Shown here piece by piece: positions 1 to 26,172 of a stretch of 64,000 nt of DNA (position 1 is the first letter of the stretch; each line of letters starts with the position of its first letter). The notes under the pieces were generated by a model. The model made no database searches, was not told the DNA's origin, and saw only the letters and a program-made list of their open reading frames with translations. Origin of the DNA: Janthinobacterium agaricidamnosum NBRC 102515 = DSM 9628 (GTDB lineage Bacteria > Pseudomonadota > Gammaproteobacteria > Burkholderiales > Burkholderiaceae_D); the NCBI RefSeq assembly GCF_000723165.1, contig NZ_HG322949.1:1914921-1978920 (forward strand), written 5' to 3'. The position numbers were made by a program, and so were the translations under genes.

Positions 1-1
1 C

Positions 2-2041: not shown

Positions 2042-2044
2042 TTC

Positions 2045-9700: not shown

Positions 9701-10905
9701 TGCCCGACTATATGGTGCCGGCGCGTATCGTGGTCCTGGCGTCGCTGCCGCTCAGTCCGGCCGGCAAGGTCGACCGCAATGCGCTGCCGCGGCCGCAAAC
9801 CGGCGCCTTGTGCGCACGCGAGGCGCCGCAGGGCGCCGCTGAAATTGCGCTGGCCGGGATCTGGCGCGAGGTGCTGCAAGTCGCCGGCGTCGGACGCGGC
9901 GATGACTTTTTTGCGCTGGGCGGCAATTCGCTGCTGGCGTTGCGCCTGCTGCGCCAGGTGCAGCGGCGCTTCGGCGAGGCCAGCCTGGCGCTGGCCGATG
10001 TGTTCAACACGCCGCGATTGATGCAGCAGGCGCTCAGGCTGGATGTGCGGCCCGATGCGGACCAGGCGGCGCATTGCGAGGTGGTGCGGATGAACCGCGC
10101 CGGCGCCGGCATGCCGCTGTACTGCTTCCCGGGACTGAACGTCAATTCCAGCGAATATGCGGCGCTGGTGCAGGCGCTGGGGCAGGACCGGCCGGTGCAG
10201 AGCTTTGTCTGCCACGCGCTGACGGCCGCGCGCTGGGATGGGCTGGAACTGGAACAACTGGCGCGCCGCTACGCCGCCCACATCCGCGCCGATGCCGGCG
10301 GCCGGCCGTGCGCCTTGCTGGGCTGGTCGTTCGGCGGCGACCTGGCGTTCGCCACCGCGCGCGAGCTTGAACGGGAAGGGGGGCAGGAGCGCAAGCAGCC
10401 GGTGGCGCTGGTCTGCCTGGTCGATGTGTTTGAAAGTCCCACGCTGCCGCGGCGCGGCTTGACGCAACAGGAAAGCGCGGCGGCGGAGCAAAAACTGGCG
10501 CGCTGGCTGGAGCGTTCCGCGATGGCCGGGCGCTGGCGCCAGCTGTTTGGGCGCATGACGGCGGACGAACGGAGCGCCGCGCTGCGGCACTTGCTGGACG
10601 AAGCCGAACTGCCGCTGGATGGGCCGGAGCTCGGCAGCGGCGAATACAGCCTGTGGGTGGCGTTCGACAATGCGCTGATCATGGACCGCTACCGTTACGC
10701 CAGCGGCGTCCCATTGCGGGCGCCGCTGCACGCGTTCCGGGCCGGCGCATCGCTGGAGCGGCGCGCGCCGGGCTTGCGCGACTGGAGCGCCCACGCCGAA
10801 CTGGCCGGCGCCAGCGTGGTGCCGGGCGTCGATCACCGCGGCATCCTGCTGGCGCCGGCCTTCCAGCAAGAGGTCAAGCGCCGCTTGCGCGAACTGGATG
10901 CCTGA
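6748..10905 (+). CDS. NRPS terminal module, C-A-T-TE
   Basis: A 1385-aa termination module. The ATG at 6748 overlaps the previous stop (ATGA); the frame is open further upstream but only as antiparallel or out-of-frame coding within the previous gene. The N-terminus holds a QMD tandem repeat and then VLALLLDDE, similar to the leader of the upstream synthetase. Condensation domain HHIVSDG is near 191, adenylation motif [10 protein letters not shown] near 666, carrier GGNSLL near 1058 and a type I thioesterase with GWSFGG (nucleophile Ser near 1194). Pocket residues read D-G-E-D-H-T-S-V-T. Acidic residues at pocket positions 239 and 278 suggest a basic side chain (Lys/Orn/Dab/Arg class), but I do not recognise the exact code. 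The thioesterase should release the peptide by hydrolysis or cyclisation. Confidence 0.95.
6772..6816 (+). repeat. Five perfect copies of a 9-bp tandem repeat (CAGATGGAT) in NRPS coding sequence
   Basis: Five contiguous CAGATGGAT units encode (Gln-Met-Asp)5 immediately before the conserved acidic N-terminal motif of the terminal NRPS module. The unit is a multiple of three, so copy-number change alters linker length without breaking the frame. Confidence 0.95.
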
Positions 10906-12186
10906 TTACTTGGTATCGAATACGGCGATGGCGGCGGCGATGGCCGCGTACGGATCCAGGCCGGCGTATTCGGCTTGCAGCCGGCGCGCGTGCTGGCGGT
11001 AGCTGGCGGTCGCCAGGATGTGCTCGACCGCCGCGCGGATCGCCGCCACTGTCGGACGCTGGGTCTTCAGGTTGATCGCGGCGCCGCTGTGGGCGGTGCG
11101 CGCATTGCCTTCGATCTTGTCTTCGGTTTCACCGGCCAGCACCATCGGCACGCCGAAACTGAGCGCTTGCTGGGTGCCGGCAAAACCGCCGTTGCTGACC
11201 AGAATGCTGGTATGCGGCAGCAGGTCGACGAACGGCACAAACCTGGCTACCCGCGCATTGGCCGGCACGTGGGCCGGCACGGCGTCGCTGCCGGTGGCGG
11301 CCACCACCAGCACCGGCAGGCCCGCCAGCGCTTCCAGCGTCGGCTCGATCAGGTGGCTGAAGTCGCTGTTGGCGATGGTGCCCTGGGTCACCACCACCAC
11401 CTGTTCCGCATCGAGCACATCTTGCCACCAGTCGGGCAGCTTGGCGTCCGAGGGCGGCGACGGCAGCGCGCCGACGAATTCTATATGGGCTGGCAAGTCG
11501 GACCGTTTATAGCTCAATTCCTCGACCGACAATTGCAGGTATTTGTCGGCGTGCGTAGCCATGGTTTCCAGGATAAACGAAGCCGGTTCGGTCGCGCCGA
11601 GGCGCGCCAGTTCTTGCGCATACAGCACTTGCGTTTCGCCGAACAGCGTCTGTTTGAAGAATTCGTTCTGGGCCGCGTTGCGGGCTCGTCCTTCCGGCGT
11701 GCTGTCGGGCGGCAAGCCCGCGCCCCCCGGCGCGGTGTCGATGCTGCTCAACATCAGCGGCACGGTGCCGACCACCACATAGCCCTTGGCGCGCACGCCC
11801 GGGGCGCCATGCAATGCCGGCGCCACGCCGTAGAAGCCGGATTCGGTCAAGACCACCGCCTGGTCGTCGCCGAATTGCGCCAGCACCCGCTGCAAGGTGC
11901 GGTACTGGTCGGCCATGGCGTCAACGACCAGGTGTTTCAGGTCGTACTTGACCTGGTCCAGCCCTTGCAGCGCCAGGCGTTCCGGCGAGACGAAGAGGGC
12001 CTGGTCGAATTCGGCGGCGCCGCTGACGCGCACGAAGGTGGCGCCGGTTTTTTCGACGGCGGCCTGGAACTGGATGCCGGTGATGAACGACACCTGGTGG
12101 CCGCGGCGCACCAGGTCGGCGGCGATGAACAGCATCGGTGAAGTGTGGCCTTGGGCGTCGGTGGCGCCGATGATTATCTGGGTCAT
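10906..12186 (-). CDS. GT1/MGT-family glycosyltransferase
   Basis: A 426-aa GT-B glycosyltransferase of the macrolide/UDP-glycosyltransferase type (COG1819-like), which transfers a sugar from a nucleotide donor to a small molecule. The N-terminus shows the acceptor-side fold start (GATDAQGHTSPMLFIAADL). The C-terminal half has the donor-site stretch FVPFVDLLPHTSILVSNGGF followed by GTQQALSFGVPMV; the usual His-Gly-Gly is Asn-Gly-Gly here. It converges on the NRPS operon, its stop codon directly adjoining the NRPS stop with no room for a terminator. The Shine-Dalgarno GAGG lies ~8 nt upstream of the ATG. Glycosylation of the NRPS product is suggested by proximity only; the opposite orientation weakens that link. 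Confidence 0.88.
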   Translation of the reverse strand: MTQIIIGATDAQGHTSPMLFIAADLVRRGHQVSFITGIQFQAAVEKTGATFVRVSGAAEFDQALFVSPERLALQGLDQVKYDLKHLVVDAMADQYRTLQRVLAQFGDDQAVVLTESGFYGVAPALHGAPGVRAKGYVVVGTVPLMLSSIDTAPGGAGLPPDSTPEGRARNAAQNEFFKQTLFGETQVLYAQELARLGATEPASFILETMATHADKYLQLSVEELSYKRSDLPAHIEFVGALPSPPSDAKLPDWWQDVLDAEQVVVVTQGTIANSDFSHLIEPTLEALAGLPVLVVAATGSDAVPAHVPANARVARFVPFVDLLPHTSILVSNGGFAGTQQALSFGVPMVLAGETEDKIEGNARTAHSGAAINLKTQRPTVAAIRAAVEHILATASYRQHARRLQAEYAGLDPYAAIAAAIAVFDTK

Positions 12187-13296: not shown

Positions 13297-14022
13297 ATGC
13301 TCTCTAAAAAGCGCGCCACATTGTCTCCGGAGATCGTCACGGAGCGCAGACTGCTGATGAGTGCACTGCATCCCATCGTCGACATGCTGGGCGGTATTGT
13401 CGGCCCGCATATCGAAGTGGTGCTGCACGATCTGACCCAGCCTGAGACTTCCGTGGTGGCGCTGGCCAATGGCCATGTGTCCGATCGGGGGCTGGGCGCT
13501 TCGATCCTCGGCGGCCTGAAGAACGACAAGGCGTTTATCGACGCCACCGAACAGCTGTCGGTGCGCGGCGAGGCGGTGCATTCGGTGATGGCCAGCTATG
13601 CGACCGTGACGCGCTCCGGCCGCGAACTGAAGTCCGCGACCGTGCTGTTCCGCGACGCCAATGGCGACCTTTACGCGGCGCTGTGCGTGAACGCCGATTT
13701 GAGTCATTTCCAGATGGCCCACAGCTTTCTGACCAAATTGCTGCATCCGCAGCCGCAGAGCGGGCCGGCCGATGCGGTGCTGCCGGATATGGATGTCTTG
13801 ATGCGCGAGATTATCAGCGATGCGGTGCGCCTGCACGGCAAGCCGGTGTCGATGATGAACAAAAAGGAGAAGACGCTGGCGGTGAAGAACATGCTGCAGC
13901 GCGGACTGTTCATCGTCAAGGGCGGAGTGGAGCGGGCCGCCGCCGCGCTGGAAGTGTCGCGCTATACCGTCTACAACTACCTGGAGGCGCTGCGCCAGGA
14001 AGACGATCACGACGCCGGCTGA
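13297..14022 (+). CDS. YheO/DauR-type PAS-HTH transcriptional regulator
   Basis: A 241-aa protein with an N-terminal YheO-like PAS sensor domain (LHPIVDMLGGIVGPHIEVVLHD region) and a C-terminal DauR-type helix-turn-helix (ERAAAALEVSRYTVYNYLEAL). This architecture is that of DauR, the regulator of D-arginine catabolism in Pseudomonas, and related proteins that sense small ligands. The start is set at ATG 13297, with GGAT 7 nt upstream; a longer frame from 13246 has no good ribosome-binding site. It converges on the LysR gene and is not obviously in an operon, so its target is unknown. Confidence 0.85.
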   Translation: MLSKKRATLSPEIVTERRLLMSALHPIVDMLGGIVGPHIEVVLHDLTQPETSVVALANGHVSDRGLGASILGGLKNDKAFIDATEQLSVRGEAVHSVMASYATVTRSGRELKSATVLFRDANGDLYAALCVNADLSHFQMAHSFLTKLLHPQPQSGPADAVLPDMDVLMREIISDAVRLHGKPVSMMNKKEKTLAVKNMLQRGLFIVKGGVERAAAALEVSRYTVYNYLEALRQEDDHDAG

Positions 14023-14213: not shown

Positions 14214-15155
14214 TTACGCTGTACTGGACGGGGCTTGCAGCATGGTTTCCGGCCAGATGGCGTATTGGCCGCCGTTGCCATACAGATCGCGTTGTTGCCG
14301 CACATGCTCGGCCATGTGTTCGATAAACAGCTTGATCCGTGTCGCATAGCGCAAATCCGCATGCGTCAGCAGCCACAGTTCGGAATTGCCGGACTTCGGC
14401 ACCATGCTGACACAGCGCAGCGGCGAGCCTGGCCGTACCAGCATCACCGGCAGCGGCGCCACGCCGAGTCCCGCTTCGGCCAGCTGGCGCAGCACGATGA
14501 AGGAGTTGGCCCGCAGCGCGGCCGGCTGATTCGGCAGCGCCCGTTGCAGCCAGCTCGACACCGACGAGTTTTCCAACGCGCCGTCCGGCAGCAGCCAGTA
14601 CAGGCCGGCCACGCTGGCCACGTCCGCTTGTGCCAGGTAGCCGGGCGTCGCATACAGGCCGAACACCAGCGGGCCGAGGCGCTTGCCGACCAGCTTGTCC
14701 GGTGGTGCGACGGAGGGGCGCAGCGCTATGTCGGCCGCGTGTTTCTGCAAGTCCAGCTGGCTGTTCGAGATCATCACTTCGACGGTGATCGCGGGATATT
14801 TGGCGCGGAAGCTGGCCAGGATCGGCGACACCATGCACTCCATCAGCGCGTCGGTGGTGGTGAAACGGATTTTGCCGTCCACTTCGGCGCGCTGTCCCGA
14901 TAGCCGGCGCCGCGTTTCATTGACGGTGGCCTCGATCGTTTCGGCGGCGGCGATCAGGAGCTTGCCGCCTTCGGCCCCCTTGTAGCCGGCCGCCAGCCGG
15001 TCGAAAATGCGGGTGCCCAGCGTCAACTCGGTTTTTTGCAGGCGCCGCAAGACCGTCCCGTGCGTGACCTTCAAAATCCGTGCCGCCGCGGCGACCGAGC
15101 CGTGCCGCGCCACCGCCAGGACAAAGCGCAGGTCGTCCCAGTTGAAATCATCCAT
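14214..15155 (-). CDS. LysR-type transcriptional regulator
   Basis: A 313-aa LysR-family regulator. The N-terminal winged helix-turn-helix (FVLAVARHGSVAAAARIL, then LRRLQKTELTLG) is followed by an effector-binding domain (KIRFTTTDALMECMVSPIL onward). It is divergent from the TonB-receptor/ABC/ammonia-lyase block that begins at 15776, the usual arrangement for a LysR protein controlling its neighbour. The ligand cannot be read from the sequence. Control of that block is inference from position. Confidence 0.9.
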   Translation of the reverse strand: MDDFNWDDLRFVLAVARHGSVAAAARILKVTHGTVLRRLQKTELTLGTRIFDRLAAGYKGAEGGKLLIAAAETIEATVNETRRRLSGQRAEVDGKIRFTTTDALMECMVSPILASFRAKYPAITVEVMISNSQLDLQKHAADIALRPSVAPPDKLVGKRLGPLVFGLYATPGYLAQADVASVAGLYWLLPDGALENSSVSSWLQRALPNQPAALRANSFIVLRQLAEAGLGVAPLPVMLVRPGSPLRCVSMVPKSGNSELWLLTHADLRYATRIKLFIEHMAEHVRQQRDLYGNGGQYAIWPETMLQAPSSTA

Positions 15156-15220
15156 ATTGCTTCTTTCGTGTTTTTTATTGCGCGATGACGTAATGTTGCG
15201 CTATTTCAGCGGCCATGCAT

Positions 15221-15238
15221 ACTAAATAAGTCTTTAGT
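15221..15238. promoter_or_regulatory. Inverted repeat upstream of LysR gene (possible operator)
   Basis: ACTAAA-N6-TTTAGT forms a perfect 6-bp dyad 66 bp upstream of the LysR start, in the divergent region shared with the TonB receptor. Its size and location fit a LysR-type binding site; this is unproven. Confidence 0.35.
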
Positions 15239-15417
15239 TTTCAATGTCATATACGGAAGATAAGACAGATTGGACGTCAGCTTGCCGAAATTGAACAAAG
15301 TTGAACATACAGCCATCGGCCGCGCCAGATTTTTCCACCTGCCAAGAAAAAGTGCAGCAATTCTTTTCCCTTTTTAAACAATAACTTGCCATCCACGGCC
15401 CTGCCTTGTGAACAAAC

Positions 15418-15426
15418 TTATCCACA
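15418..15426 (+). other. Single consensus DnaA box in an AT-rich 620-bp gap
   Basis: The gap 15156-15775 holds no convincing gene and is more AT-rich than its surroundings. It contains one exact DnaA box (TTATCCACA), flanked by two similar dyads, TTGTGAACAA upstream and TTGTTAACAA downstream. A lone box does not make an origin; it could serve DnaA titration or regulation, or be chance. Confidence 0.4.
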
Positions 15427-15775
15427 GATTTTGTTAACAAGTGGCGCTTGCCGGCCGCCGCTGCGCCGTCCGGGCCATGGGGCCGCGTCGGGCCAGCTGC
15501 TGCAGCGTCTTTTTTTCATTATCAAATTTCGTATAAATAAGCATATTTTTCTTCGTATTCAAGGTTTTTTAACTTGTATATACTTTTTCTGATGGTGATG
15601 CTCTTTACCGAAGTGCGGTTCTCCACGTATCCGGCGCTGGCGACGATCTTGCCCTTGGTACCGGCTTCCATGGCGCCGGTCGCGGCGCATCCAATGCTGA
15701 CACCCAATCTCATTGCTGTAGCAAAATGCTGGTGCTGTATTAAAAAATACTAAAAATTAACTCTAAGGGATGGTA

Positions 15776-18058
15776 ATGGGAAAGCATTTGATTGGTCATG
15801 GTACCTTGGTCGTACTATCGGCTGTAGTCCTTACATCGCCGGCGCAGGCGCAGCAAGCCGCTTCGGCTGGCGGTTCGGATACGATCGAGCGGGTCGAAGT
15901 GACGGCCACGCGTGCCGCCGGCTCGGTCGATGTGCAAAAAGTGCCGGCCGCGATCACGGTATTGCAGCCGGAAAGCCTGGCCAAGTTTGGGCTCGGCAAC
16001 CTGACCGATATCGCCAGCGCGGTGCCGGCGATGAGCGTGCAAGAGCAGGGGCCGGGCGTCAACAACATCACCATGCGCGGGCTGGTGGTGCGCGGCATCG
16101 TGCCGTCTGAAATCCAGGATGCGTCGCTGGTGGCGGTGTATGTCGACGATATGCCGGTGACCTTGAAATCCAGCAATCCTGATTTGAAAGTGCTCGACCT
16201 GGAGCGCATCGAAGTATTGCAGGGCCCGCAGGGCACGCTGTTCGGCGCCGGCGCGATGGCTGGCGCGGTGCGCCAGATTACCCAGAAACCCGACACCAAC
16301 GAGCTGTTCGGCTCGCTGGAAGCGGTCGGTTCACGCACCTCCGGCTTCGGCGGCAACAACCATAATCTGCGCGGCATGGTCAACATCCCGTTGAAGGATG
16401 ACGTGCTCGGCTTGCGCCTGGCTGCTTACACCGGCAATGATTCCGGTTATGTCAGAAATGCCCTGACCGGCGACACCACCAACGCCGTGTCGACCAACCA
16501 GGGCCGCGCCGCGCTGCGCTTGCGCGCCAGCCGCGACTTGACGGTGGACGCCAGCGTCACTTCGTCGAATATCAAGGGCGGCATCAACGACGCCTACGCC
16601 GACCTGGCGCCATACACCACGATCGCCTTGCTGCCGCAAAAAAGCAATGACAACCTGCAACTGTATAACGTTGCGCTGAATTACGACCTGGGCGGCGCGC
16701 AACTGGTGTCGTCCACCTCTTATCTGCACCGCGACACCTTGTATGTGCAGTCGGCGCAATATCCGGCCACCGCCTTCATTTTCGGCGGCAATCCGCCGCT
16801 GATGCAAGCCGCTTACCAGATCGCCAATGCAGTGACCGACTTTGCGCAGGAATTGCGGCTCAACTCGAACAGCACCGGTCCCCTGAAATGGACCGCCGGC
16901 GCGTTCTTTGAAAGCGGCAAGCGCCACGTGGTGCAGGAAGAGCCGACGGTCGGTTTCGATGCGCGTTTCGCGGCCACCCATAATTTCCCTGGTTATAACT
17001 CGCAAACCAACGAACTGGCGTCGACCCCGGATAACTTCTTTTCCGGCTTGCAAAACACCAAGTCGCGCCAGGTCGCGCTGTTTGCCGAAGGCACTTACAC
17101 CGTGTGGGATAAACTCGATCTGACGGCCGGCTTGCGCCTGTTCCGTGGCACCCAGGATTTCGACCTGCGCTTTTCCGGCCTGTTCGGCAACCTGGTCGGC
17201 GCCACGCCGGCGTCGCCGGTCGGCACGCCCGAAACCAGCAGCAGCAGCGCCACCTCGCAAGGCGCCAACCCGCGCTTTGCCGCCGCTTACCGGCTCGACC
17301 AGGATCACATGCTGTATGCCAGCGCCGGCAAGGGCTTCCGTTATGGCGGCAATAACCAGCCGGTGCCGTTCAAGCTGTGCGGCGTGAACGCGCCGACCAC
17401 GTTTGCGCCGGACAGCTTGTGGAACTATGAAGTCGGCTCGAAAAACACTTTGCTGGACCACCGCATGACCTTCAACGTCAGCGCTTACGTGATCGAGTGG
17501 AGCGATGTGCAGGTCTTCAATAAATTGCCGTGCACCTATTACTACACGCTGAACGCCGGCAAGATCCGCAGCCAGGGCCTGGAACTGGAAACCGCGTTCA
17601 AGCTGACCCGCCGCGCCACTTTCGGCCTGAGCGCGTCGTATAACAATGCCTATGCCAAGGATACCGTGGTGACCGGCATCGCCGCGCAAAACATTCCGGC
17701 CGGCAGCCGCACGCCGTATGCGCCGCACTTCGCCGCCAACGCCACCGTCGGCTACAGCATCCCGCTGTCGGGTTCGGATGAAATCGGCGTTTCGGCCAGT
17801 TATGCCTATCGTGGCGATTCCTACACTAACTTTGCCAAGGCGCAAGGCAGCTACGAAGAAATCCCGTCGTCGAACATGGTCAACGCGACGCTGACCTATA
17901 AAACGCGCGGCTACGAAGTCGGCCTGTTCGGCAGCAACTTGACCAACGGCACCAAGGTCAGCGACGTAACGCCGAACGTGATCGCGATCCAGCCGGGCAA
18001 TGCCTTGTACATGGCGCGTCCGCGCACCATCGGCCTGCGTTTCAAGACGCGTTTTTAA
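15776..18058 (+). CDS. TonB-dependent outer-membrane receptor
   Basis: A 760-aa receptor with a signal peptide ending in AQA, a plug domain (VEVTATR near 40; VLDLERIEVLQGPQGTLFG near 145) and a ~22-strand barrel ending in aromatic RFKTRF, the normal C-terminal signature. The start is set at ATG 15776, 5 nt after AAGGGA; the ATG at 15770 sits too close to that site. It heads a co-directional block with a betaine-type ABC transporter and an ammonia-lyase homologue, so it probably imports the substrate that the transporter then carries across the inner membrane. The substrate is not evident from sequence. Confidence 0.92.
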   Translation: MGKHLIGHGTLVVLSAVVLTSPAQAQQAASAGGSDTIERVEVTATRAAGSVDVQKVPAAITVLQPESLAKFGLGNLTDIASAVPAMSVQEQGPGVNNITMRGLVVRGIVPSEIQDASLVAVYVDDMPVTLKSSNPDLKVLDLERIEVLQGPQGTLFGAGAMAGAVRQITQKPDTNELFGSLEAVGSRTSGFGGNNHNLRGMVNIPLKDDVLGLRLAAYTGNDSGYVRNALTGDTTNAVSTNQGRAALRLRASRDLTVDASVTSSNIKGGINDAYADLAPYTTIALLPQKSNDNLQLYNVALNYDLGGAQLVSSTSYLHRDTLYVQSAQYPATAFIFGGNPPLMQAAYQIANAVTDFAQELRLNSNSTGPLKWTAGAFFESGKRHVVQEEPTVGFDARFAATHNFPGYNSQTNELASTPDNFFSGLQNTKSRQVALFAEGTYTVWDKLDLTAGLRLFRGTQDFDLRFSGLFGNLVGATPASPVGTPETSSSSATSQGANPRFAAAYRLDQDHMLYASAGKGFRYGGNNQPVPFKLCGVNAPTTFAPDSLWNYEVGSKNTLLDHRMTFNVSAYVIEWSDVQVFNKLPCTYYYTLNAGKIRSQGLELETAFKLTRRATFGLSASYNNAYAKDTVVTGIAAQNIPAGSRTPYAPHFAANATVGYSIPLSGSDEIGVSASYAYRGDSYTNFAKAQGSYEEIPSSNMVNATLTYKTRGYEVGLFGSNLTNGTKVSDVTPNVIAIQPGNALYMARPRTIGLRFKTRF

Positions 18059-18088
18059 GCGGCGCCGCACTTTTTCCTGGAGATTGAC

Positions 18089-19027
18089 ATGACATCTGCT
18101 TCCCCTCGGCACTGGCCGGTCTGGGCCATCTGCGCGGCCCTGTTATGCGGGCCGGCGCAGGCTGAACCGGCCGAGACCGGCATCACCATCGGTTCCAAGA
18201 TCGACACGGAAGCTTCGCTGCTGTGCCCGATGGTCAGGCTGGCGCTGGCGGCGCATGGCATCAAGGTCAGGGACAAGTGCGGCACCGGCGCCACCCAGGT
18301 AGTGCGCAAGGCCTTGCTGGAAGGGGAAATCGACGCCTATCCCGAATACAGCGGCAACGCGCCTTACCTGATCAAGAACGTCAAGTTTGAACCCGGCATC
18401 TTCAAGGATGGGGCCAGGGGTTACGCGGCCGGCGCCAGGGCCGACCTGGAACAGAACCAGATCGTCTGGCTGAAACCGGCGCCGGCCAGCGTCAGTTATG
18501 GCGTGGCGATTCCGCAAAAGCTGGCCAGGGCCGAGAAAATCGCCACCTGGTCGGACCTGGCGCGTTACATCAACGCCGGAAAAACCTTTAAAGTGGTGGT
18601 CAGCCAGGAATTCGTCGACCGCGACGATGGCTTGAAGGCGTTTGAAAAAGTGTATGGATTCCGATTAAAACCGGCGCAATTGATTATCCTGCCGGGCGGC
18701 AATACCGCACAGACCGAGACGGCGGCGGCGCAAGGCACCAGCGGCGCCAACGCGGCGATGGCGTACACCACCGACGGCCAGATTCCCGCGCTGGGACTGG
18801 TGGCGCTGACCGACAACGCCGGCGCCGTCGATGTGTCGCAACCCTTGCTGACGATACGCAGCGCGGCGCTGAAGAAATATCCCGGCATTCCCGCCATCAT
18901 CGAGCCGATCTTCGCGACGCTGGACGTGGCCACGCTGTCGCGCCTGAACACCAAAATCGTCGTCGGCGGCCAGTCCGGGGCCAAGGTCGCCGAACAGTAT
19001 TTGAAACAAAAAGGCTTTTTGAAATGA
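18089..19027 (+). CDS. OsmF/YehZ-like ABC substrate-binding protein (betaine/osmoprotectant family)
   Basis: A 312-aa periplasmic binding protein with a signal peptide ending near GPAQA. It shows the OpuAC-type fold (ITIGSKIDTEASLL at the start of the mature protein, GEIDAYPEYSGNAP mid-domain). This family binds quaternary amines such as glycine betaine, choline and, in some Gram-positive relatives, ergothioneine. Its stop overlaps the next permease start (ATGA). Gene order binding protein-permease-ATPase-permease is the same as E. coli yehZYXW. Confidence 0.88.
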   Translation: MTSASPRHWPVWAICAALLCGPAQAEPAETGITIGSKIDTEASLLCPMVRLALAAHGIKVRDKCGTGATQVVRKALLEGEIDAYPEYSGNAPYLIKNVKFEPGIFKDGARGYAAGARADLEQNQIVWLKPAPASVSYGVAIPQKLARAEKIATWSDLARYINAGKTFKVVVSQEFVDRDDGLKAFEKVYGFRLKPAQLIILPGGNTAQTETAAAQGTSGANAAMAYTTDGQIPALGLVALTDNAGAVDVSQPLLTIRSAALKKYPGIPAIIEPIFATLDVATLSRLNTKIVVGGQSGAKVAEQYLKQKGFLK

Positions 19028-20439
19028 GCAGCGCGCTGCGGATGCGATTGCCGTTGGCCGGCAAGTCCGGTATCAGATGGCCCGGATTTTCGGCGCGGCC
19101 GAACAGCATCGCGCTGTGTGCCGCGCTGCTTGGCCTGCTGTCCTTGCAGTGGCCGTTTGTCGTGTTGCGCCTGAACCGCGTGATGCCATTGGGCGATGAC
19201 TACTCCCTGTTTGCGTTGAATCCGGGCTGGGGCGGCCTGGCTGCCGGCGCCTGGCTGCTGTTCGGTGTCAGCGCGGTGCTGGCGCCAGGCAAGTTGCGCA
19301 AGGCGGCGCTGGCGCTGGCCTTGAGCATCGCCGCCGGCGCGTGTTTTGCCGCATTGACCTGGGGCGCGCTGCACCTGACCGCCGACAATGAATTTTCCCG
19401 CGTCGGCATCGGCGCCGGCGCATGGAGCAGCCTGGCCGCGCTGTATATCGCGCTGTTCGCGCTGCACGCCGAAGCGCCGTTATGGCTGCCGGCGCCGCTG
19501 CTGGTGCTGGCCGCGCTGGCCGGCGCCGCGCCGTACCGCCACCTCGGCATCGTGCTGGAATACCGGGAAGTCGCTGATGTATTCCAGCAAGAATTCCTGC
19601 GCCACATCTTGCTGGTCGGTGCGGCCTTGCCGCTGGTTATCCTGGCCGGCGCGGCGATCGGCGTGCTGGCGGTGCGCAAACCGGCTTGTGAAGGTGTGCT
19701 GCTGAGCGTCACAGGTTTCTTGCAAACCGTGCCGTCGATTGCCTTGTTCGGCTTGCTGCTGCCCTTGCTGTCGGTCTATGGCCGGCAGGTGACGGTGGCT
19801 GGTGCGCTGCTGTTTGCGCTGGCCTTGCTGGTGTTAACCGGCGCCGGCTGGCTGCTGCTGAAACGCTGGCCGCAGCCGCTGTTGTTGACCGTATATGGCG
19901 TGGTCATTGCGCTGGGGCTGCTTGTATTGCTGCCGGTGTTCGGTTTGACGGTGTATCAATTGATGGCGGACGGCGCCGCTTTTATCGCCAGCCTGCATGC
20001 TTCGGCCACGCTGGCCGAGCTGGGCTTGCGCGGCCTCGGTGCGGCGCCGGCCATCGTCGCGCTGGTGCTGTATGGCATTTGGCCGATCGTGGTGCATACC
20101 CATGCCGGCCTGGGCAGCGTGCCGGCCGCGATCCTCGAAGCGGCGCGCGGCATGGGCATGAGTAGCCGGCAAATTTTCTGGCGCGTCGAATTGCCGCTGG
20201 CCGCGCCCTTCCTGGTGCAGGGCGTGCGGGGAGCGTTGCTGCTGCTGATCGGCTTGACTACCGTCGCGGTGTTGGTCAATGCCGGCGGCCTCGGGTTTTT
20301 CCTGTTGCGCGGCACGGAACAATCGGTGTCCGACCTGGTGTTGCTGGGATCGTTGCCGGTGGTCGCGCTGGCCTTCGGCGCCGACGCCTTGACCCGCTTG
20401 CTGGCTTGGGCGCTGACGCCACGGGGAGCTTGGAGATGA
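19024..20439 (+). CDS. ABC permease, YehY-like
   Basis: A 471-aa inner-membrane permease. About 220 N-terminal residues form several extra hydrophobic helices. They precede a typical BPD transport domain with the coupling segment near residue 365 (ILEAARGMGMSSRQIFWRVE). The large membrane extension is a feature of YehY-type permeases. The start overlaps the binding-protein stop and the stop overlaps the ATPase start, so the four transporter genes form one translationally coupled operon. Confidence 0.88.
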   Translation: MSSALRMRLPLAGKSGIRWPGFSARPNSIALCAALLGLLSLQWPFVVLRLNRVMPLGDDYSLFALNPGWGGLAAGAWLLFGVSAVLAPGKLRKAALALALSIAAGACFAALTWGALHLTADNEFSRVGIGAGAWSSLAALYIALFALHAEAPLWLPAPLLVLAALAGAAPYRHLGIVLEYREVADVFQQEFLRHILLVGAALPLVILAGAAIGVLAVRKPACEGVLLSVTGFLQTVPSIALFGLLLPLLSVYGRQVTVAGALLFALALLVLTGAGWLLLKRWPQPLLLTVYGVVIALGLLVLLPVFGLTVYQLMADGAAFIASLHASATLAELGLRGLGAAPAIVALVLYGIWPIVVHTHAGLGSVPAAILEAARGMGMSSRQIFWRVELPLAAPFLVQGVRGALLLLIGLTTVAVLVNAGGLGFFLLRGTEQSVSDLVLLGSLPVVALAFGADALTRLLAWALTPRGAWR

Positions 20440-21371
20440 TACGTTTGAGTCACATCGACAAGCATTACGACAGCGTGGTGGCGTTGAATCGGGTCAACCT
20501 GGAAATCGACCACGGCAAGCTGGTGGTGCTGATCGGCCCGTCCGGTTGCGGCAAGTCGACCTTGCTGCGGGTGGTCAACCGCATCATCGAACCGAGCGGC
20601 GGCCGGATTTTTATCGACGGCAAGGACGCGCTGGACATCGATCCGGTCTTGCTGCGCCGTTCGATCGGCTATGTGATCCAGAACGCCGGCTTGTTCCCGC
20701 ATTTGACGATACGCGAAAACGTTGCCGTCGTGCCCCATTTGCTGGGCTGGGACAAGGCCAGGCGCTTGCGCCGCGCCGACGAGATGCTGGCGCTGGTGCG
20801 ACTCGATCCGCATCAGTTCGGCAATCGCTATCCGAAGGAATTGTCGGGCGGGCAGCAGCAGCGGGTCGGTATCGCCCGCGCGCTGGCGGCCGATCCGGCG
20901 GTGTTGCTGATGGATGAGCCGTTCAGCGCCGTCGATCCGATCACCCGCGAACAATTGCAGGAAGAATTGCTGCGCATCCAGCGCGACGTGCGCAAGACCA
21001 TCGTTTTTGTTACGCACGATATCGATGAAGCGATCCGTCTCGGCGACAAGATTTGCCTGATGCGCGAAGGTTCAGTGGTGCAATACGCCGATCCCGACAC
21101 CATGCTGCGCCATCCGGCCGACCCGTTCACCGCCCAATTCATCGGGCAAGAGCCGGAATTGAAGCGGCTGGGCCGTCACAGCGTCGGCGACTTCATGCGC
21201 CACGATGCGCCCGGGGCCGGCCTGGCCGGGGCCGAACGGGTAGGACTGTCGACCAGCGCGCGCAGTGCGCTGAGTAAACTGCTCGGCGGTCAATCCGCGC
21301 TGGTGGTGGTCGACGCCAGCGGCGTCGCGGTCGGCCATGTGTCGCTGGCCGATTTTGCGTCGCTGGCATGA
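20436..21371 (+). CDS. ABC ATPase, YehX/OpuCA-like
   Basis: A 311-aa nucleotide-binding subunit with Walker A GPSGCGKST, signature LSGGQQQR, Walker B VLLMDEPFSAVD and the switch His in FVTHD. The C-terminal ~60 residues resemble a short CBS-like tail, as in the quaternary-amine transporter ATPases. The start at 20436 overlaps the preceding permease stop; an upstream ATG at 20406 lies inside that gene. It powers the two permeases encoded on either side. Confidence 0.9.
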   Translation: MIRLSHIDKHYDSVVALNRVNLEIDHGKLVVLIGPSGCGKSTLLRVVNRIIEPSGGRIFIDGKDALDIDPVLLRRSIGYVIQNAGLFPHLTIRENVAVVPHLLGWDKARRLRRADEMLALVRLDPHQFGNRYPKELSGGQQQRVGIARALAADPAVLLMDEPFSAVDPITREQLQEELLRIQRDVRKTIVFVTHDIDEAIRLGDKICLMREGSVVQYADPDTMLRHPADPFTAQFIGQEPELKRLGRHSVGDFMRHDAPGAGLAGAERVGLSTSARSALSKLLGGQSALVVVDASGVAVGHVSLADFASLA

Positions 21372-22114
21372 CGATGAGTAAATTCTTTTTAAACCGTCAT
21401 GCGCCGGGCTTGCTGTGCTGGCCTGTGTTGTGGTTGCTGTACAGCCATGAAGCCTGGTGGCACGCTTTATTGGCGCCGCTGGGGGAGGCTGGCCAGCCGG
21501 TGCTGTACCAGCGCATCAGCCTGGTCGAGGCGGCGCAAAGCCATGTCCTGATTGTCGCCGCCGCGATGGCCGGCGTGTTGCTGTTGGGCTTGCCGTTGGC
21601 GATCTGGGCCACGCGCAGTCGCGGTAAAACCTTTTTACCGCTGATCGCCAATAGCGCGACGATAGGCCAGACCTTGCCGCCGGTGGCGGTGCTGTTCCTG
21701 GCCACGCCGATCTTCGGCTTTGGCTCGCAGGCGATCATTTTCGCCTTGTTTGCCTATGGCTTGATGCCGACGGTGCAGGGCGCGTTGACCGGTTTGCGGC
21801 AAGTCGATGGCGATATCAAGCGGGCTGCACAAGGCATCGGCATGGATTCGTCGCGGTTGTTGTGGACGGTCGAATTGCCGCTGGCGTTGCCGGCCATCCT
21901 GGCCGGTCTGCGCACCAGCCTGGTGTTGTCGGTCGCCACCGCGTCGCTGGCGCCGATGGCCGGCGGCGTCAGCCTCGGCACGCCGATTGTTTCCGGCCTG
22001 GCTGTCAACAATGCGACCCAGGTGATGGAAGGCGCGCTGGCCGTCGCGTTGCTGGCGATCGCTTGCGATTATTCGATGCGCGTGCTGGAACGTTGCCTTA
22101 CGCCATGGCGCTGA
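21368..22114 (+). CDS. ABC permease, YehW-like
   Basis: A 248-aa permease with about six membrane segments and the coupling segment GIGMDSSRLLWTVELPLALP. It completes the yehZYXW-type set. The start overlaps the ATPase stop (ATGA at 21368-21371); ATG 21374 is also possible. It is separated by only 13 nt from the ammonia-lyase homologue, so transport and catabolism are likely co-expressed. Confidence 0.9.
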   Translation: MTMSKFFLNRHAPGLLCWPVLWLLYSHEAWWHALLAPLGEAGQPVLYQRISLVEAAQSHVLIVAAAMAGVLLLGLPLAIWATRSRGKTFLPLIANSATIGQTLPPVAVLFLATPIFGFGSQAIIFALFAYGLMPTVQGALTGLRQVDGDIKRAAQGIGMDSSRLLWTVELPLALPAILAGLRTSLVLSVATASLAPMAGGVSLGTPIVSGLAVNNATQVMEGALAVALLAIACDYSMRVLERCLTPWR

Positions 22115-22127
22115 ACGGGAGTTGCTA

Positions 22128-23660
22128 ATGAAAATGGAAAATCCGATGGTCTTGCTCGATGAAGCGGCGCTGGACTGGCGCGCCGTGGTCCGCGTGGCGC
22201 GCGGCGCGCCACTGGCCTTGAGCCCGGCGGTCCGGCAACGCCTGCTGAATGCGCGGCGCATCGTCGAACGCATCGTCGCCGATGGCGTGCGCGCATACGG
22301 CATCAATACCGGCCTCGGCGCCTTGTGCGACCAGGTGCTGCAGCCGGCGTCGCTGGCTGAATTGTCGTTGAATACCTTGAAAAGCCACGCTTGCGGCGTC
22401 GGCGACGCGTTGCCGGATGAGCTGGTGCGCGCCATCATCTGCGCCCAGGTCGCCAATTACAGCCATGGCAAATCCGGTATCAGCCCGGAGCTGGTCGATG
22501 GTTTATTGGCGCTGCTGAATCTCAACTTGATCCCGCTGGTGCCGTCGCGCGGTTCGGTCGGCTACCTGACCCATATGGCGCATATCGGCTTGCCGCTGGC
22601 TGGTTTGTGGCAAGTCCGGATCGAGGGCAAGGTGATCGACGCCAAGGATGCGCTGGCCGATGCGGGGCTCAGCCCATTAGTGCCGGGCGCCAAGGACGGC
22701 TTGAGCCTGGTCAACGGCACGCCGTGCGTGACCGGCCTGTTATGCGTTGCCTTGCATCATGCGGTGCGGCTGCAAAAATGGGCCGACATCATTGCCGCGA
22801 TGAGTTTTGAAGCGCTGCGCGGCCAGACCGCCGCCTTCGATACCGACGTGCTGGCGCTGAAACCGCATGGCGGCGCGCAAATCGTCGGCCGCAACTTGCG
22901 CGCCTTGCTGGCTGGCAGCACGGTGCTGGCTGCCGCGCAAGGCATTCGCACGCAAGACGCGCTCAGTTTGCGCGCCGTGCCGCACATCCACGGCGCCACC
23001 CGCGACCAGGTCGAGCATGTTGCGAAGCAAGTTAATACCGAGCTGGCCTCGGCCACCGACAACCCGCTGGTGCTGGGCAGGCCCGACGATTACCGGGTGC
23101 TGTCGCAAGCCAATCCGCACGGCCAGTCGATGGCCTTCGCGGCCGATTTGCTGAGCATTGCGCTGGCCGAACTGGGTGGCGTTGCCGAGCGGCGCATCGA
23201 CCGGCTGGTCAATCCATTGGTCAGCGGCTTGCCGGCCTTCCTGGTGGAAAACAGTGGTCTCAATTCCGGTTTGATGATCGTGCAATACGTCGCCGCATCG
23301 CTGGTCGCCGAAAACAAGGTGCTGTCGCAAGCGATGGTGGTCGACAACTATGTGACGTCGGCCTTGCAGGAAGACCATCTGAGCCTGGCCACGCCGGCCG
23401 CGCTGAAAACCCTGCAAGTGATCGCCAACACCGAACGGATACTGGCGCTGGAATACCTGGCGGCAGGACAGGCGCTGCAATTTTATCCGCTGGCATCGCT
23501 GGCGCCGGGCACCCGTGCCGCGCTGGCCGTGCTGCGCGAGCACGTCGATGCTTACACGCAAGACCGGATACTGGCGCCGGACATCGCGGCGGCCACCACG
23601 CTCATCCAGCGCGACGACGGCATCCGCCGCATCGAAGCGCTGCTGGACATCAGGCTGTAA
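22128..23660 (+). CDS. Histidine ammonia-lyase-family protein lacking the MIO Ala-Ser-Gly triad
   Basis: A 510-aa member of the HAL/PAL fold: YGINTGLG near 57, a GSVG loop at 142-145, KDGLSLVNGT, AVPHIHGATRDQ and QEDHLS. In true lyases GSVG is followed by Ala-Ser-Gly, which cyclises to the MIO electrophile. Here GSVG runs directly into YLTHMAHIGL, so the triad is absent. The surrounding fold is intact, so this is a divergent subfamily rather than a decayed gene. The start is set at ATG 22128 (GGGAG upstream). From memory, Pseudomonas hut loci also carry a second HAL paralogue beside a betaine-type ABC transporter, which fits this context. The reaction and substrate are unknown. Confidence 0.85.
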   Translation: MKMENPMVLLDEAALDWRAVVRVARGAPLALSPAVRQRLLNARRIVERIVADGVRAYGINTGLGALCDQVLQPASLAELSLNTLKSHACGVGDALPDELVRAIICAQVANYSHGKSGISPELVDGLLALLNLNLIPLVPSRGSVGYLTHMAHIGLPLAGLWQVRIEGKVIDAKDALADAGLSPLVPGAKDGLSLVNGTPCVTGLLCVALHHAVRLQKWADIIAAMSFEALRGQTAAFDTDVLALKPHGGAQIVGRNLRALLAGSTVLAAAQGIRTQDALSLRAVPHIHGATRDQVEHVAKQVNTELASATDNPLVLGRPDDYRVLSQANPHGQSMAFAADLLSIALAELGGVAERRIDRLVNPLVSGLPAFLVENSGLNSGLMIVQYVAASLVAENKVLSQAMVVDNYVTSALQEDHLSLATPAALKTLQVIANTERILALEYLAAGQALQFYPLASLAPGTRAALAVLREHVDAYTQDRILAPDIAAATTLIQRDDGIRRIEALLDIRL

Positions 23661-23693
23661 GGCACGATTACGTCACCAGGGAAGCACGGCCAT

Positions 23694-24668
23694 ATGGGAT
23701 CATCAGTATTGACACATGCACGTTCGGAATACATCGACGCGGAACAGCATACGCATATTTCCAGCGAACGGGGGCGCCGCTTGTGGCTGGCCGAATGGCC
23801 GACCTGGCTGTTGATCGTCGTCATTTATAGCGGCTGGTGCGCGACGCTGGCCTATTGGAAGCAGATCGGTCCGCTGCCCGGCACCGCGCTGATGATCTGG
23901 TGGTGCGCCTGGTATATGTCGCTGCAACACGAATTGATCCACGGACACCCAACGCCATGGCCCTGGCTCAACCGGATCTTCGGTTATGCGCCGCTGACCA
24001 TCTGGTACCCCTACCGGCTGTACCGCGACAGCCATTTGCGGCATCACGTCGACTTTCATTTGACGATGCCGGCGCTCGACACCGAAAGTTATTATGTGTC
24101 GCCGGCAACCTGGGCCACGATGAGCAAGCCGATGCAAAAGCTGCACTGGTTTAACAAGACCTTCTGGGGCCGCATGCTGGTCGGTCCGGCGCTGTCGATA
24201 GGCGGCGTGTTCAGTGCAGCGATACGCCAGCCCTTGCGCGGCAATTGGCAAGACGTGCCGATGTGGCTGATTCACTTTGCCATGGTGGCCGTTTTGCTGT
24301 GGGCGATCCATGCGCTATTCGGCATGTCGCCGTGGTATTACATCGTGGCGATTTCCTATCCGGCGCAGTCGATCAACAAGATCCGCTCGTATTATGAACA
24401 CCGGCCGGCGCAAGACCACAAGCAGCGCATCGTCATCAACGAGGCGGGTCCGGTATTCAGTCTGTTATTCCTGAATAATAATTTGCATCTGGTGCATCAT
24501 GACTTTCCATCGCTACCATGGTATTTGATCCCGCGCGTGTACCAGGCGCGGCGCGCGGCCTACATACGGCGCAGCGGCGGTTTTCATGTCAACGGTTATG
24601 GCGAGTTGATGCGTCGTTTCGGTTTTAGCGCCATCGATGCGCCCGTCCACCCCCATATGCCGGAATAA
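23694..24668 (+). CDS. Membrane fatty-acid desaturase/hydroxylase-family protein
   Basis: A 324-aa integral-membrane protein with the three histidine clusters of the di-iron desaturase/hydroxylase superfamily: HELIHGH near 81, HLRHH near 112 and HLVHH near 265, separated by hydrophobic spans. Such enzymes use O2 to desaturate or hydroxylate an alkyl chain or small molecule. It starts 33 nt after the ammonia-lyase homologue and is followed 4 nt later by a PhnD-like binding protein. It therefore probably acts on the pathway intermediate rather than on bulk lipid; that is inference from context. Confidence 0.85.
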   Translation: MGSSVLTHARSEYIDAEQHTHISSERGRRLWLAEWPTWLLIVVIYSGWCATLAYWKQIGPLPGTALMIWWCAWYMSLQHELIHGHPTPWPWLNRIFGYAPLTIWYPYRLYRDSHLRHHVDFHLTMPALDTESYYVSPATWATMSKPMQKLHWFNKTFWGRMLVGPALSIGGVFSAAIRQPLRGNWQDVPMWLIHFAMVAVLLWAIHALFGMSPWYYIVAISYPAQSINKIRSYYEHRPAQDHKQRIVINEAGPVFSLLFLNNNLHLVHHDFPSLPWYLIPRVYQARRAAYIRRSGGFHVNGYGELMRRFGFSAIDAPVHPHMPE

Positions 24669-24672
24669 GCTG

Positions 24673-25476
24673 ATGACCTGGAAAATTGCCTTGCCTATGT
24701 ATAACGTGTCGGTACCGGTGCGCGACGTTTATGAAGCCGTGCTCGACACGCTGATCGACGCGTTGCGGGCCGGCGGCTGGATCGGCCAGGTCGAACTGCA
24801 ACGTCAACCGCTATTGCCTGACAGCTGGAAAGACCCGGATTTGTTGTTCAGCCAGACTTGCGGTTATCCGTATATGACGCAATTGCAAGACCATGTGCAA
24901 CTGCTCGCCACGCCATGCTACGCCGTGGCCGGCTGTAGCGGCAGCGATTATTCGAGCGCCATCGTGGTGCGCAGCAATGGTCCGATCAGCAGCCTGGCCG
25001 ACGCGCGCGGGCACATTGCCGCGGCAAATGATCCCGCTTCGAACAGCGGCATGAATGTGTTGCGCCATGCGGTCGCGCCGCTGGCCCGCGATGGCGGCTT
25101 CTTTGGCGGCGTGACATGGTCGGGCAGCCACGTTGCCAGCCTGGGGCTGGTGCGCGATGGCGCGGCCGATATCGCGGCGGTCGATTGCGTCACCTTTGCC
25201 TATTTGCAGCAAGAAAATCCGGCATGGCTGGAAGGGCTGTCCATCTTGCAGTACTCGGCGCCGTCGCCGGGCTTGCCGATGGTTGCCGGCAAAAACGTGC
25301 CGCCAGCAGTGCTGCGCCAATTGCGCCAGGCTTTGCTGGAACCCGGCCCGCGACTGGCGCAATTGATGCAATCGCTGCATATCAGCGGGTTCCAGCATCG
25401 CCCGCATCAAGATTACGCGCGTATCATGCAACTGGAGCGCGAGGCGCGCGAGCACGGCTATCCCGCGCTGGTGTGA
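24673..25476 (+). CDS. PhnD-like periplasmic-binding-fold protein
   Basis: A 267-aa protein of the phosphate/phosphonate-binding PhnD superfamily (FSQTCGYPYMTQLQD, ARGHIAAANDPASNSGMN, VTWSGSHVASL, DGAADIAAVDCVTF). It lacks an obvious signal peptide from the chosen start, ATG 24673, which lies 4 nt after the desaturase stop. Without export it may bind ligand in the cytoplasm, or an N-terminal helix may be missing. No permease or ATPase follows it, so it is not a standard transporter component here. Its role in the block is unknown. Confidence 0.75.
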   Translation: MTWKIALPMYNVSVPVRDVYEAVLDTLIDALRAGGWIGQVELQRQPLLPDSWKDPDLLFSQTCGYPYMTQLQDHVQLLATPCYAVAGCSGSDYSSAIVVRSNGPISSLADARGHIAAANDPASNSGMNVLRHAVAPLARDGGFFGGVTWSGSHVASLGLVRDGAADIAAVDCVTFAYLQQENPAWLEGLSILQYSAPSPGLPMVAGKNVPPAVLRQLRQALLEPGPRLAQLMQSLHISGFQHRPHQDYARIMQLEREAREHGYPALV

Positions 25477-25494
25477 GGCCGGGATGTTGCGGGC

Positions 25495-26172
25495 TCAGCC
25501 GGCGCGCCGGTCCAGCACGATAAAACCGTCGCCATCGACGCTGGCCACGATGGTGTCGTAACTGGCGATCGTCGCGTGCGGCGTATCGATCGCATGGGCG
25601 TGGGTGGCGGTGACCACCATCACGTTGGCGCCGGCCGCCTGGCCGGCCAGGATGCCGACGGTTGCGTCTTCAAACACCAGGCAATCGGCGGCGTCGACGC
25701 CCAGCTTGTCGGCGGCCAGCAGATAACAATCGGGATGCGGCTTGCCGGCGCTGACATCTTCGCCGGTGACCATTACCTGCGGCAACGGCATGCCGGCCGC
25801 CCTCAAGCGCTCGATCGCCAGGGCCCGCGGCGCCGACGTGACGATCGCCCATTTGCTGGCCGGCAGCGACTTTAAAAAGTTGGCCGCGCCGGCGATTTCG
25901 ATAATGCCTGCCACATCGATAATTTCCGCCTCGGTAATCCACAGCGCTTCGGCGTGCGGATCGACGTTGGGCAAGTTCAGCTTGGCGATGGTGTCCACCC
26001 CGCGCGCGCCGTGTATGGTCGGCAAGAACGCGGCCACATCGAGGCCATGGCGGGTCGCCCACTGGCCCCAGATGCGTTCGGCCGCGGCGATCGAGTTGAT
26101 GATGGTGCCATCCATGTCGAACAGGAAGGCGCGGTAGCGGTGGTTGATGTGCGATGGGGCGTGCTCAGACAC
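25495..26172 (-). CDS. HAD-superfamily sugar-phosphatase-like hydrolase
   Basis: A 225-aa HAD phosphatase with motif I FDMDGTIINS, motif II VTSAPRA, motif III Lys in SAGKPHPDCYLLAA and motif IV VFEDATVGI. It resembles the small sugar-phosphate or glycerol-phosphate phosphatases with a helical cap. The start is set at GTG 26172, with AAGGA 7 nt upstream; the longer frame from ATG 26217 lacks one. It converges on the PhnD-like gene and appears monocistronic. Confidence 0.85.
   Translation of the reverse strand: MSEHAPSHINHRYRAFLFDMDGTIINSIAAAERIWGQWATRHGLDVAAFLPTIHGARGVDTIAKLNLPNVDPHAEALWITEAEIIDVAGIIEIAGAANFLKSLPASKWAIVTSAPRALAIERLRAAGMPLPQVMVTGEDVSAGKPHPDCYLLAADKLGVDAADCLVFEDATVGILAGQAAGANVMVVTATHAHAIDTPHATIASYDTIVASVDGDGFIVLDRRAG

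Follow-up and report, generated by a model that had tools for sequence, protein, structure and literature searches.

The closest described relatives of the locus presented here are histidine ammonia-lyase (HAL; HutH, EC 4.3.1.3), ergothionase, the HutH1 protein of the Pseudomonas hutTu-hutXWV-hutH1 module, and the importers EgtU and OsmF/YehZYXW. For GkHAL, one report describes the equivalents of the active-site tyrosine, histidine, asparagine and glutamate as essential, and says that the methionine equivalent is conserved among bacterial HALs (PMC11432326). Ergothionase is a trimethylamine lyase reported to be without MIO (PMC13405746). Histidine uptake has been reported to involve HutXWV. 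EgtUC binds hercynine approximately 10,000-fold more weakly than ergothioneine, and hence membership of the OpuAC/EgtU family does not give the ligand. In a literature search which reached few subscription papers, we found no published account of a HAL clade lacking the MIO triad beyond a statement on HutH1.

The window analysed here is a stretch of 64,000 nucleotides from Janthinobacterium agaricidamnosum, in which the initial annotation had described a one-strand block of uptake and catabolic genes divergent from a LysR gene. Pfam searches found all of its parts in place:

14214..15155, minus strand: LysR-type regulator, divergent from the block (Pfam HTH_1 and LysR_substrate)
15776..18058, plus strand: TonB-dependent receptor (Pfam Plug and barrel)
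18089..19027, plus strand: OsmF/YehZ-like periplasmic binding protein (Pfam OpuAC, 152 bits)
19024..20439, plus strand: ABC permease, YehY position (Pfam BPD_transp_1; ATGA overlap with the preceding gene)
20436..21371, plus strand: ABC ATPase, YehX position, betaine/proline/choline family (TIGR01186 proV; start from ATGA overlap and codon model)
21368..22114, plus strand: ABC permease, YehW position (Pfam BPD_transp_1)
22128..23660, plus strand: HAL-fold protein P0007 without MIO triad, HutH1-type (Pfam PF00221, 515 bits)
23694..24668, plus strand: FA_desaturase-family membrane di-iron oxygenase/desaturase (Pfam, 99.7 bits)
24673..25476, plus strand: PhnD-fold protein without visible signal peptide (Pfam Phosphonate-bd, 87 bits)

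The transporter genes follow the order binding protein-permease-ATPase-permease, which we take to be that of YehZYXW, and are joined by three ATGA overlaps (at 19024, 20436 and 21368), both as first described. Genes were called with a codon model, which together with the ATGA overlap places the start of the ATPase gene at 20436 and not at TTG 20406, while ATG 15776 is the better start for the TonB receptor because AAGGG directly abuts ATG 15770. A promoter scan of positions 15000-25700 gave no sigma-70-like sites, with 3.4 expected by chance. Two Janthinobacterium genomes carry a homologue of the receptor, 86% identical, at the corresponding position, and in Rugamonas/Duganella the identity is 71-79%; the order of receptor, importer and HAL is kept across the three genera. 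Compared with one other Janthinobacterium (L018), all eight genes have dN/dS values of 0.085-0.255; therefore the block is not decaying, and the idea of a pseudogene was ruled out. The host genome also carries a hut locus, away from the block, and a canonical HutH.

The structure model of P0007 has the HAL fold (pLDDT 87.4, pTM 0.90), and the protein lacks Ala-Ser-Gly as had been claimed: it reads GSVGYLTHMAH where the canonical HutH of the host reads GSVGASGDLAPLSH, a difference of exactly three residues, which are missing at the MIO triad. Its score against the NCBIfam hutH model (496.6 bits) is below the cut-off of 539. P0007 and its close class retain the histidine-pocket residues H83, M382 and E414 and the base Y53, and P0007 has Leu at the Tyr280 position and Pro at the Phe329 position. 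In an alignment whose rows are mostly from Pseudomonas, so that counts are not independent and Fisher tests on residues ignore kinship, Y53, Q277, R283 and E414 are kept in all 98 triad-less rows, H83 in 94, and N195 and M382 in 91 each, whereas Y280 is replaced by Leu in 97/98 and F329 is replaced in 90/98; both are present in all 117 triad-bearing rows, and a single triad-less row (L125) retains them. Within the close class (n=88) M382 and E414 are found in 88/88 and F329 is Pro, Ala or Cys in 88/88, while residues Y53 to R283 are no independent finding there because the class was defined by them.

P0007-type proteins fall in a clade of 25 rows with support of 100/99 in the tree. The GSVGYLTHMAH-type motif was present in 80/80 GTDB loci (the best 80 of 539 relatives), a conservation which is partly due to selection because SVGYLTHM was one of the two patterns of that scan; the other genome and plasmid searches for relatives were run without it. 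The triad-less HAL clade is conserved and selected. Absence of the block elsewhere had been named beforehand as a possible refutation; this refutation failed, and the clade was found to recur with an importer in other genomes. Close-class members are preceded at short distance by an importer ATPase gene in 86/87 cases, versus 2 of the 33 canonical HALs whose loci hold no triad-less HAL (enough sequence was present for 32 of these) and only 1/10 triad-less rows outside the close class. Of the 102 canonical HALs with a histidine signature, 69 share a locus with a triad-less gene, frequently a short way downstream of it, and the 33 from other loci are the fairer control. In the mapped loci of the clade the partner is most often a betaine-family importer, and OpuAC-family importers are repeatedly the neighbours of MIO-less HALs, in a range that extends from Rhizobium to a haloarchaeon; some of the importers adjoining clade members are of the amino-acid type and not of the betaine type, and on the Rhizobium ACO-34A plasmid no importer gene precedes the clade member. 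In the block itself, the binding protein scores 311.1 bits against the OsmF model NF049931, below the curated cut-off of 400, and belongs to the wider OpuAC family; in the amine cage of EgtUC four positions are aromatic, and three of these are aromatic here too. The ATPase scores 318.7 bits against TIGR01186 proV (cut-off 326.6).

A second recurrent association is that with histidine degradation. Genes of the hut pathway lie near the clade member in 72/73 Pseudomonas loci, and hutU, hutI or hutG was found in 72/80 GTDB loci (the best 80 of 539 relatives). HutC adjoins the clade member in Rhizobium and in one Pseudomonas locus (L029), and in locus L159 the clade member occupies the hutH position of the hut operon, while L018-L023, L076 and L097 have no hut genes within their stretches. 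From these loci the P0007 clade seems to be what Pseudomonas carries as HutH1, its unexplained second 'histidase', the match to HutH1 of SBW25 being one of position; this correspondence had not been seen in the initial annotation, which was largely right.

We consider that the block serves the import and breakdown of a quaternary amine derived from histidine, with hercynine (N,N,N-trimethylhistidine) as the most likely compound, by means of a MIO-free lyase, and put the probability of this reading at about one half. That a betaine derived from histidine is taken up and modified had been proposed from the start, and is still the best reading given the retained histidine pocket, the recurring OpuAC-family importers and the hut linkage. 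The TonB receptor would carry the substrate across the outer membrane and the OsmF-type ABC transporter, whose ligand is predicted within an established family, across the inner membrane. In the HAL-fold protein, the Tyr53 equivalent may then take the beta-proton with expulsion of trimethylamine from hercynine to give urocanate, a step suggested by the residues, the ergothionase precedent and the hut context. Canonical HAL needs the MIO electrophile for departure of the amino group, whereas trimethylamine is already a good leaving group. The cofactor was probably lost in favour of a methylated histidine as substrate in place of histidine. The urocanate would be degraded by the hut operon of the host, the genes for which are present. 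Counted against this reading were the amino-acid-type importers, the reported part of HutXWV in histidine uptake, the weak binding of hercynine by EgtUC, the Rhizobium ACO-34A locus, the 1/10 triad-less rows outside the close class with an ATPase gene upstream, the Y280 and F329 of L125, the hut-free stretches and the Tyr-to-Ser change in the amine cage, and also that a TonB receptor is not obviously required for a molecule as small as hercynine.

The same residue pattern could come from a catalytically dead HAL, with histidine or an analogue as bound ligand and the importer or the active HutH under its control, since the triad is gone along with Y280 and F329 yet the histidine pocket is kept, and a canonical HAL is also in the stretch at 68/80 GTDB loci (the best 80 of 539 relatives). 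We regard such a pseudoenzyme as unlikely: Y53 as the base and R283 as the carboxylate-binding residue stand in all 98 triad-less rows, the commonest partner is the importer and not HutH, a clade member occupies the hutH position in L159, and no canonical HAL was found in the stretches around the clade members of Rhizobium ACO-34A, Erwinia and the Janthinobacterium/Rugamonas/Duganella blocks. Conversion of ergothioneine to thiourocanate by an ergothionase is, in our judgement, quite unlikely, as all seven HutU proteins tested (six and that of L159) score as urocanate and not thiourocanate hydratases, and in a PDB sequence search P0007 was closer to unmutated HAL chains (277-327 bits) than to ergothionase (182 bits). 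The thiourocanate hydratase model matched 0/300 genomes of the order, with the control silent too.

Since importer types differ between lineages, the clade does not have to act on a betaine in every case, and there is some room for a MIO-free lyase of other imidazole compounds that carry a good leaving group, N-acylated or O-activated derivatives of histidine for example. This is improbable, as betaine-family importers are the most frequent partner in the mapped loci, and trimethylamine is what is removed by the only MIO-less relative described as characterised in the literature examined. The family of the transporter would also fit an ordinary osmoprotectant uptake operon with unrelated passenger genes downstream, to which we give hardly any weight given the conserved receptor-importer-HAL order, the purifying selection on all eight genes, and the Rhizobium ACO-34A plasmid, on which desaturase, PhnD and the same HAL clade are together again.

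The two last genes of the block have a different distribution. As predicted, the desaturase has the three histidine clusters of the membrane di-iron FA_desaturase superfamily, with H79/H83, H114/H117/H118 and H265/H268/H269, plus H236, invariant in 16/16 aligned homologues. The PhnD-like protein scores 68.3 bits against NCBIfam PhnD (cut-off 261) and most likely starts at 24673, because its homologues begin like MTWK.ALPMY at the first strand of the fold, with seemingly no space ahead of it for a signal peptide; it is probably cytoplasmic, judging from N-termini assessed by hydropathy only, two homologues starting fairly hydrophobic. Among 294 genomes of the family, HAL was found in 3, the desaturase in 30, PhnD in 31, and desaturase and PhnD both in 30, ruling out a single fixed operon of all three. 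The desaturase/PhnD-like pair, which recurs beside betaine importers, is a separate two-gene module mostly occurring without HAL, and not part of the HAL core as first supposed. It may serve as an accessory to the pathway, with either the same compound class or a methylamine product as its target.

More tentatively, loss of MIO may mark a large, mostly uncharacterised class of betaine-specialised HAL-fold lyases in which HutH1 would be a hercynine trimethylamine lyase, and HutH1 together with the desaturase and a cytoplasmic PhnD-fold protein could form a new aerobic histidine-betaine route. If so, soil bacteria would recover nitrogen from histidine betaines of fungal and bacterial origin, with one more source of trimethylamine as a consequence. 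It would also be a warning that the MIO cofactor cannot be present in every protein that is annotated as histidine ammonia-lyase. The analysis also brings to light a recurring oxygenase/PhnD-fold pair.

Compared with the described systems, P0007 shares its fold and histidine-pocket residues with histidine ammonia-lyase, and differs from it by the missing MIO triad, the Y280L and F329P replacements and another operon partner. With ergothionase of Treponema denticola (6S7J), reported to act on a histidine betaine by trimethylamine elimination, it has the HAL fold without MIO in common, although the two are only 28% identical and the hut-linked relatives of P0007 sit with urocanate, not thiourocanate, hydratase. 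The PhnD-like protein is of the same fold family as PhnD/AioX-type binding proteins, but has no visible signal peptide or adjoining cognate permease and is paired with a membrane oxygenase. The binding protein shares the OpuAC family and most of the aromatic cage with EgtU and OsmF/YehZYXW, whereas Asn339 is replaced by Val, and Tyr443 is Ser in Janthinobacterium. HutH1 of the hutTu-hutXWV-hutH1 module belongs to the same clade by position and sequence (60-65% identity for the Pseudomonas loci), and both proteins lack the triad and directly follow an ABC importer; this is of the ProX type in most mapped Pseudomonas loci and of the OsmF/YehZYXW type in Janthinobacterium, where the block adds a TonB receptor, a desaturase and a PhnD-like protein and the hut genes lie elsewhere.

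The Janthinobacterium-type genome that carries the block (genus judged by its nearest relatives) is 5.95 Mb in size, and the block itself is organised as follows:

15776-25476, plus strand: block of a TonB receptor, an OpuAC-family binding protein, a permease, an ATPase, a permease and then three downstream genes
After the importer, plus strand: HAL-fold protein (P0007), FA_desaturase-family protein and PhnD-fold protein

The importer genes are in the order yehZ-Y-X-W, as in E. coli, with a LysR gene transcribed divergently from the block; gene content and the three ATGA overlaps between the importer genes confirm the arrangement described in the initial annotation. A canonical (triad-bearing) HutH is encoded elsewhere in the genome, with hutU, hutG, hutF, hutI, hutD and hutC homologues within the surrounding 16 kb. 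Directly left of the block the G+C content is ~71% (1-8000) and 69% (8001-12000), and this region contains a reading frame (6058-10905) for an NRPS module (condensation, AMP-binding, carrier and thioesterase), followed on the opposite strand by a glycosyltransferase-like gene (10906-12186). The gene of a YheO-like regulator with PAS_6 and HTH_22 domains (13297-14022) separates the NRPS region from the LysR gene. In a related Janthinobacterium (L018, 13420-15821) an alpha/beta hydrolase and a hybrid histidine kinase are encoded downstream of the block.

Aligned with the HutH of its own genome, P0007 has exactly three residues fewer at the MIO triad (GSVG-ASG-D becomes GSVG-Y), which bears out the earlier statement that Ala-Ser-Gly is absent. 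In a GTDB scan the best 80 of 539 relatives were kept (73 Pseudomonas, six Janthinobacterium/Duganella/Rugamonas and one Leeia), and GSVGYLTHM(A/S)H was present in all 80 loci, a conservation partly due to selection because this motif was included in one of the two patterns used for the scan. The triad is also absent from relatives found independently of that pattern, with GSVGYLTHMAH in another genome of the same family (L005/L007) and an Erwinia plasmid, GSAGYL(T/V)HNAH in three Rhizobium/Neorhizobium plasmids and GSLGYLNHQAH in Priestia.

All HAL proteins from the loci collected by then were aligned (215 proteins; 98 triad-less, 117 triad-bearing), with residues numbered as in P. putida HAL. 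Y53, Q277, R283 and E414 are retained in all 98 triad-less proteins, H83 in 94, and N195 and M382 in 91 each. Both Y280 and F329 are present in 117/117 triad-bearing proteins, whereas Y280 is replaced by Leu in 97/98 triad-less proteins, so that loss of the triad and loss of Y280 are coupled with L125 as sole exception; position 329 of the triad-less proteins is Pro in 83, Phe in eight, Ala in four, and Cys, Gly and Tyr in one each. The 88 proteins of the close class around P0007, which is defined by its signature up to R283, all contain M382 and E414 and all have F329 replaced. According to PMC11432326, altering the equivalents of Y53, H83, N195 and E414 in Geobacillus HAL abolishes activity on histidine, and together with the retained residues this indicates that the imidazole/carboxylate pocket and the general base are kept. 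The electrophile and both its neighbours are lost in this class, and the pocket would be expected to have more space on its amine side as a result.

We then searched for an ABC-importer ATPase gene on the same strand, up to 1.2 kb upstream of the HAL gene. Of the 87 proteins in the close class other than P0007, 86 had such a gene, the exception being Priestia, where the HAL gene adjoins an MFS gene. The same search was positive for 2/33 canonical HALs (32 with enough sequence) from loci lacking a triad-less HAL, and for 0/69 sharing a locus with one; in the latter loci the canonical gene often directly follows the triad-less gene. No upstream importer was found for the triad-less protein of Rhizobium sp. 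ACO-34A, which is outside the 87. The kind of importer differs between lineages: Janthinobacterium, Rugamonas and Duganella have one of the OsmF/YehZYXW type, and it is ProX-type in L024 and, by cluster, in most mapped Pseudomonas loci and L007, associated with a lysine/arginine/ornithine-type binding protein in L159 and, by cluster, L076 and L094, and SBP_bac_3 in Erwinia. Only one of ten other triad-less HALs was positive in the strict search, and OpuAC importers are nearby in four such loci (R. leguminosarum, Rhizobium BT04, R. acidisoli and the archaeon Halocatena). Additional triad-less HAL-fold proteins that are only distantly related (L117, L119, L122, L123, L124, L127, L161 and L162) probably represent several uncharacterised MIO-less functions; some adjoin OpuAC importers, ornithine-cyclodeaminase-like or CoA-transferase genes.

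The initial annotation had proposed a single uptake and catabolic block, and of this the association of HAL with the importer stands, but the desaturase and PhnD genes are not part of a HAL core. Among 294 family genomes (E up to 1e-40, 1e-20 and 1e-100 for desaturase, PhnD-like protein and HAL), these were found in 30, 31 and 3 genomes, respectively. All 30 desaturase genomes contain the PhnD-like gene, by our count of the listed coordinates within 500 bases in 22, at ~3.9 kb in seven and on separate contigs in one; the 31st PhnD match (G106) contains a stop and its genome lacks the desaturase, and there is one in-frame stop each in G159 (PhnD) and G096 (desaturase). In 12 neighbourhoods from family genomes, a relative of the window's TonB receptor precedes the pair in five (L102-L105, L112), the OsmF-type importer separates the two genes in three (L109, L110, L113), a different OpuAC importer adjoins them in one (L107), and none of these was found in three (L106, L108, L111). 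A second TonB receptor, a RidA-like protein, an amine-oxidase-like flavoprotein and an NMT1/THI5-like protein are encoded alongside the pair in L103 and L106. In the Enterobacterales the pair adjoins an OpuAC importer and an FMN monooxygenase (Klebsiella, Erwinia) or an amino-acid importer (Pantoea). Downstream of a more distant MIO-less HAL, R. acidisoli encodes a PhnD homologue (38%). A single gene run in Rhizobium sp. ACO-34A comprises PhnD, desaturase and a MIO-less HAL of the P0007 clade. From these neighbourhoods, the pair largely belongs to betaine-type uptake modules, yet is separable from HAL. The ACO-34A run (L182, 7944-16792) continues with an aldehyde dehydrogenase, a 2Fe-2S protein and a second annotated aldehyde dehydrogenase, with an N-carbamoyl-amino-acid hydrolase and a Zn-hydrolase on the opposite strand, perhaps a non-hut route for an imidazole product. 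On an R. etli plasmid the pair is near sulfone and sulfur genes, making a sulfur compound a possible substrate.

The triad-less HALs are often linked to hut genes, with hutU, hutI or hutG within the stretch of 72 of the 80 GTDB loci (best 80 of 539); the other eight are the six Janthinobacterium/Duganella/Rugamonas loci, Leeia and one Pseudomonas locus (L097). Pseudomonas loci typically run from hutU through NCS1 permease, binding protein, permease and ATPase to the triad-less HAL, followed by canonical hutH and/or hutI and hutG, and because of this gene position the triad-less HALs of Pseudomonas would correspond to HutH1, the second histidase of these loci. HutXWV has a part in histidine uptake, according to a review (PMC8871633). 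In L159, from the same order as the host, the triad-less HAL takes the hutH position in a hutG-F-I-(Ves/HutD-like)-U operon, with the canonical HutH on a different contig. In R. leguminosarum (L115) the operon with the triad-less HAL has a divergently oriented HutC gene next to it, and in L029 a HutC gene follows the triad-less gene. All seven HutU proteins tested (five Pseudomonas, the host and L159) match urocanate hydratase (937-1035 bits) better than thiourocanate hydratase (662-696 bits).

These data strengthen the earlier proposal of betaine uptake and modification, and the urocanate-hydratase context favours hercynine ahead of ergothioneine as candidate substrate, with a putative MIO-free elimination. 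A quaternary amine would leave without activation, so that an enzyme acting on hercynine could dispense with MIO; loss of trimethylamine from hercynine would give urocanate, in agreement with HutU, HutC and the hut position. Compared with the EgtUC cage (residues from PMC9732360), the binding protein of the block has an aromatic residue at three of four aromatic positions, the fourth being Tyr in Duganella and Rugamonas and Ser in the window and L018, and Val in place of Asn339. These residues support a quaternary amine as ligand and point to no particular one, because EgtUC itself binds hercynine ~10,000-fold more weakly than ergothioneine, as given in the same paper (PMC9732360). Ergothionase is reported to have no MIO and to free trimethylamine from ergothioneine (PMC13405746, citing Maurer 2019).
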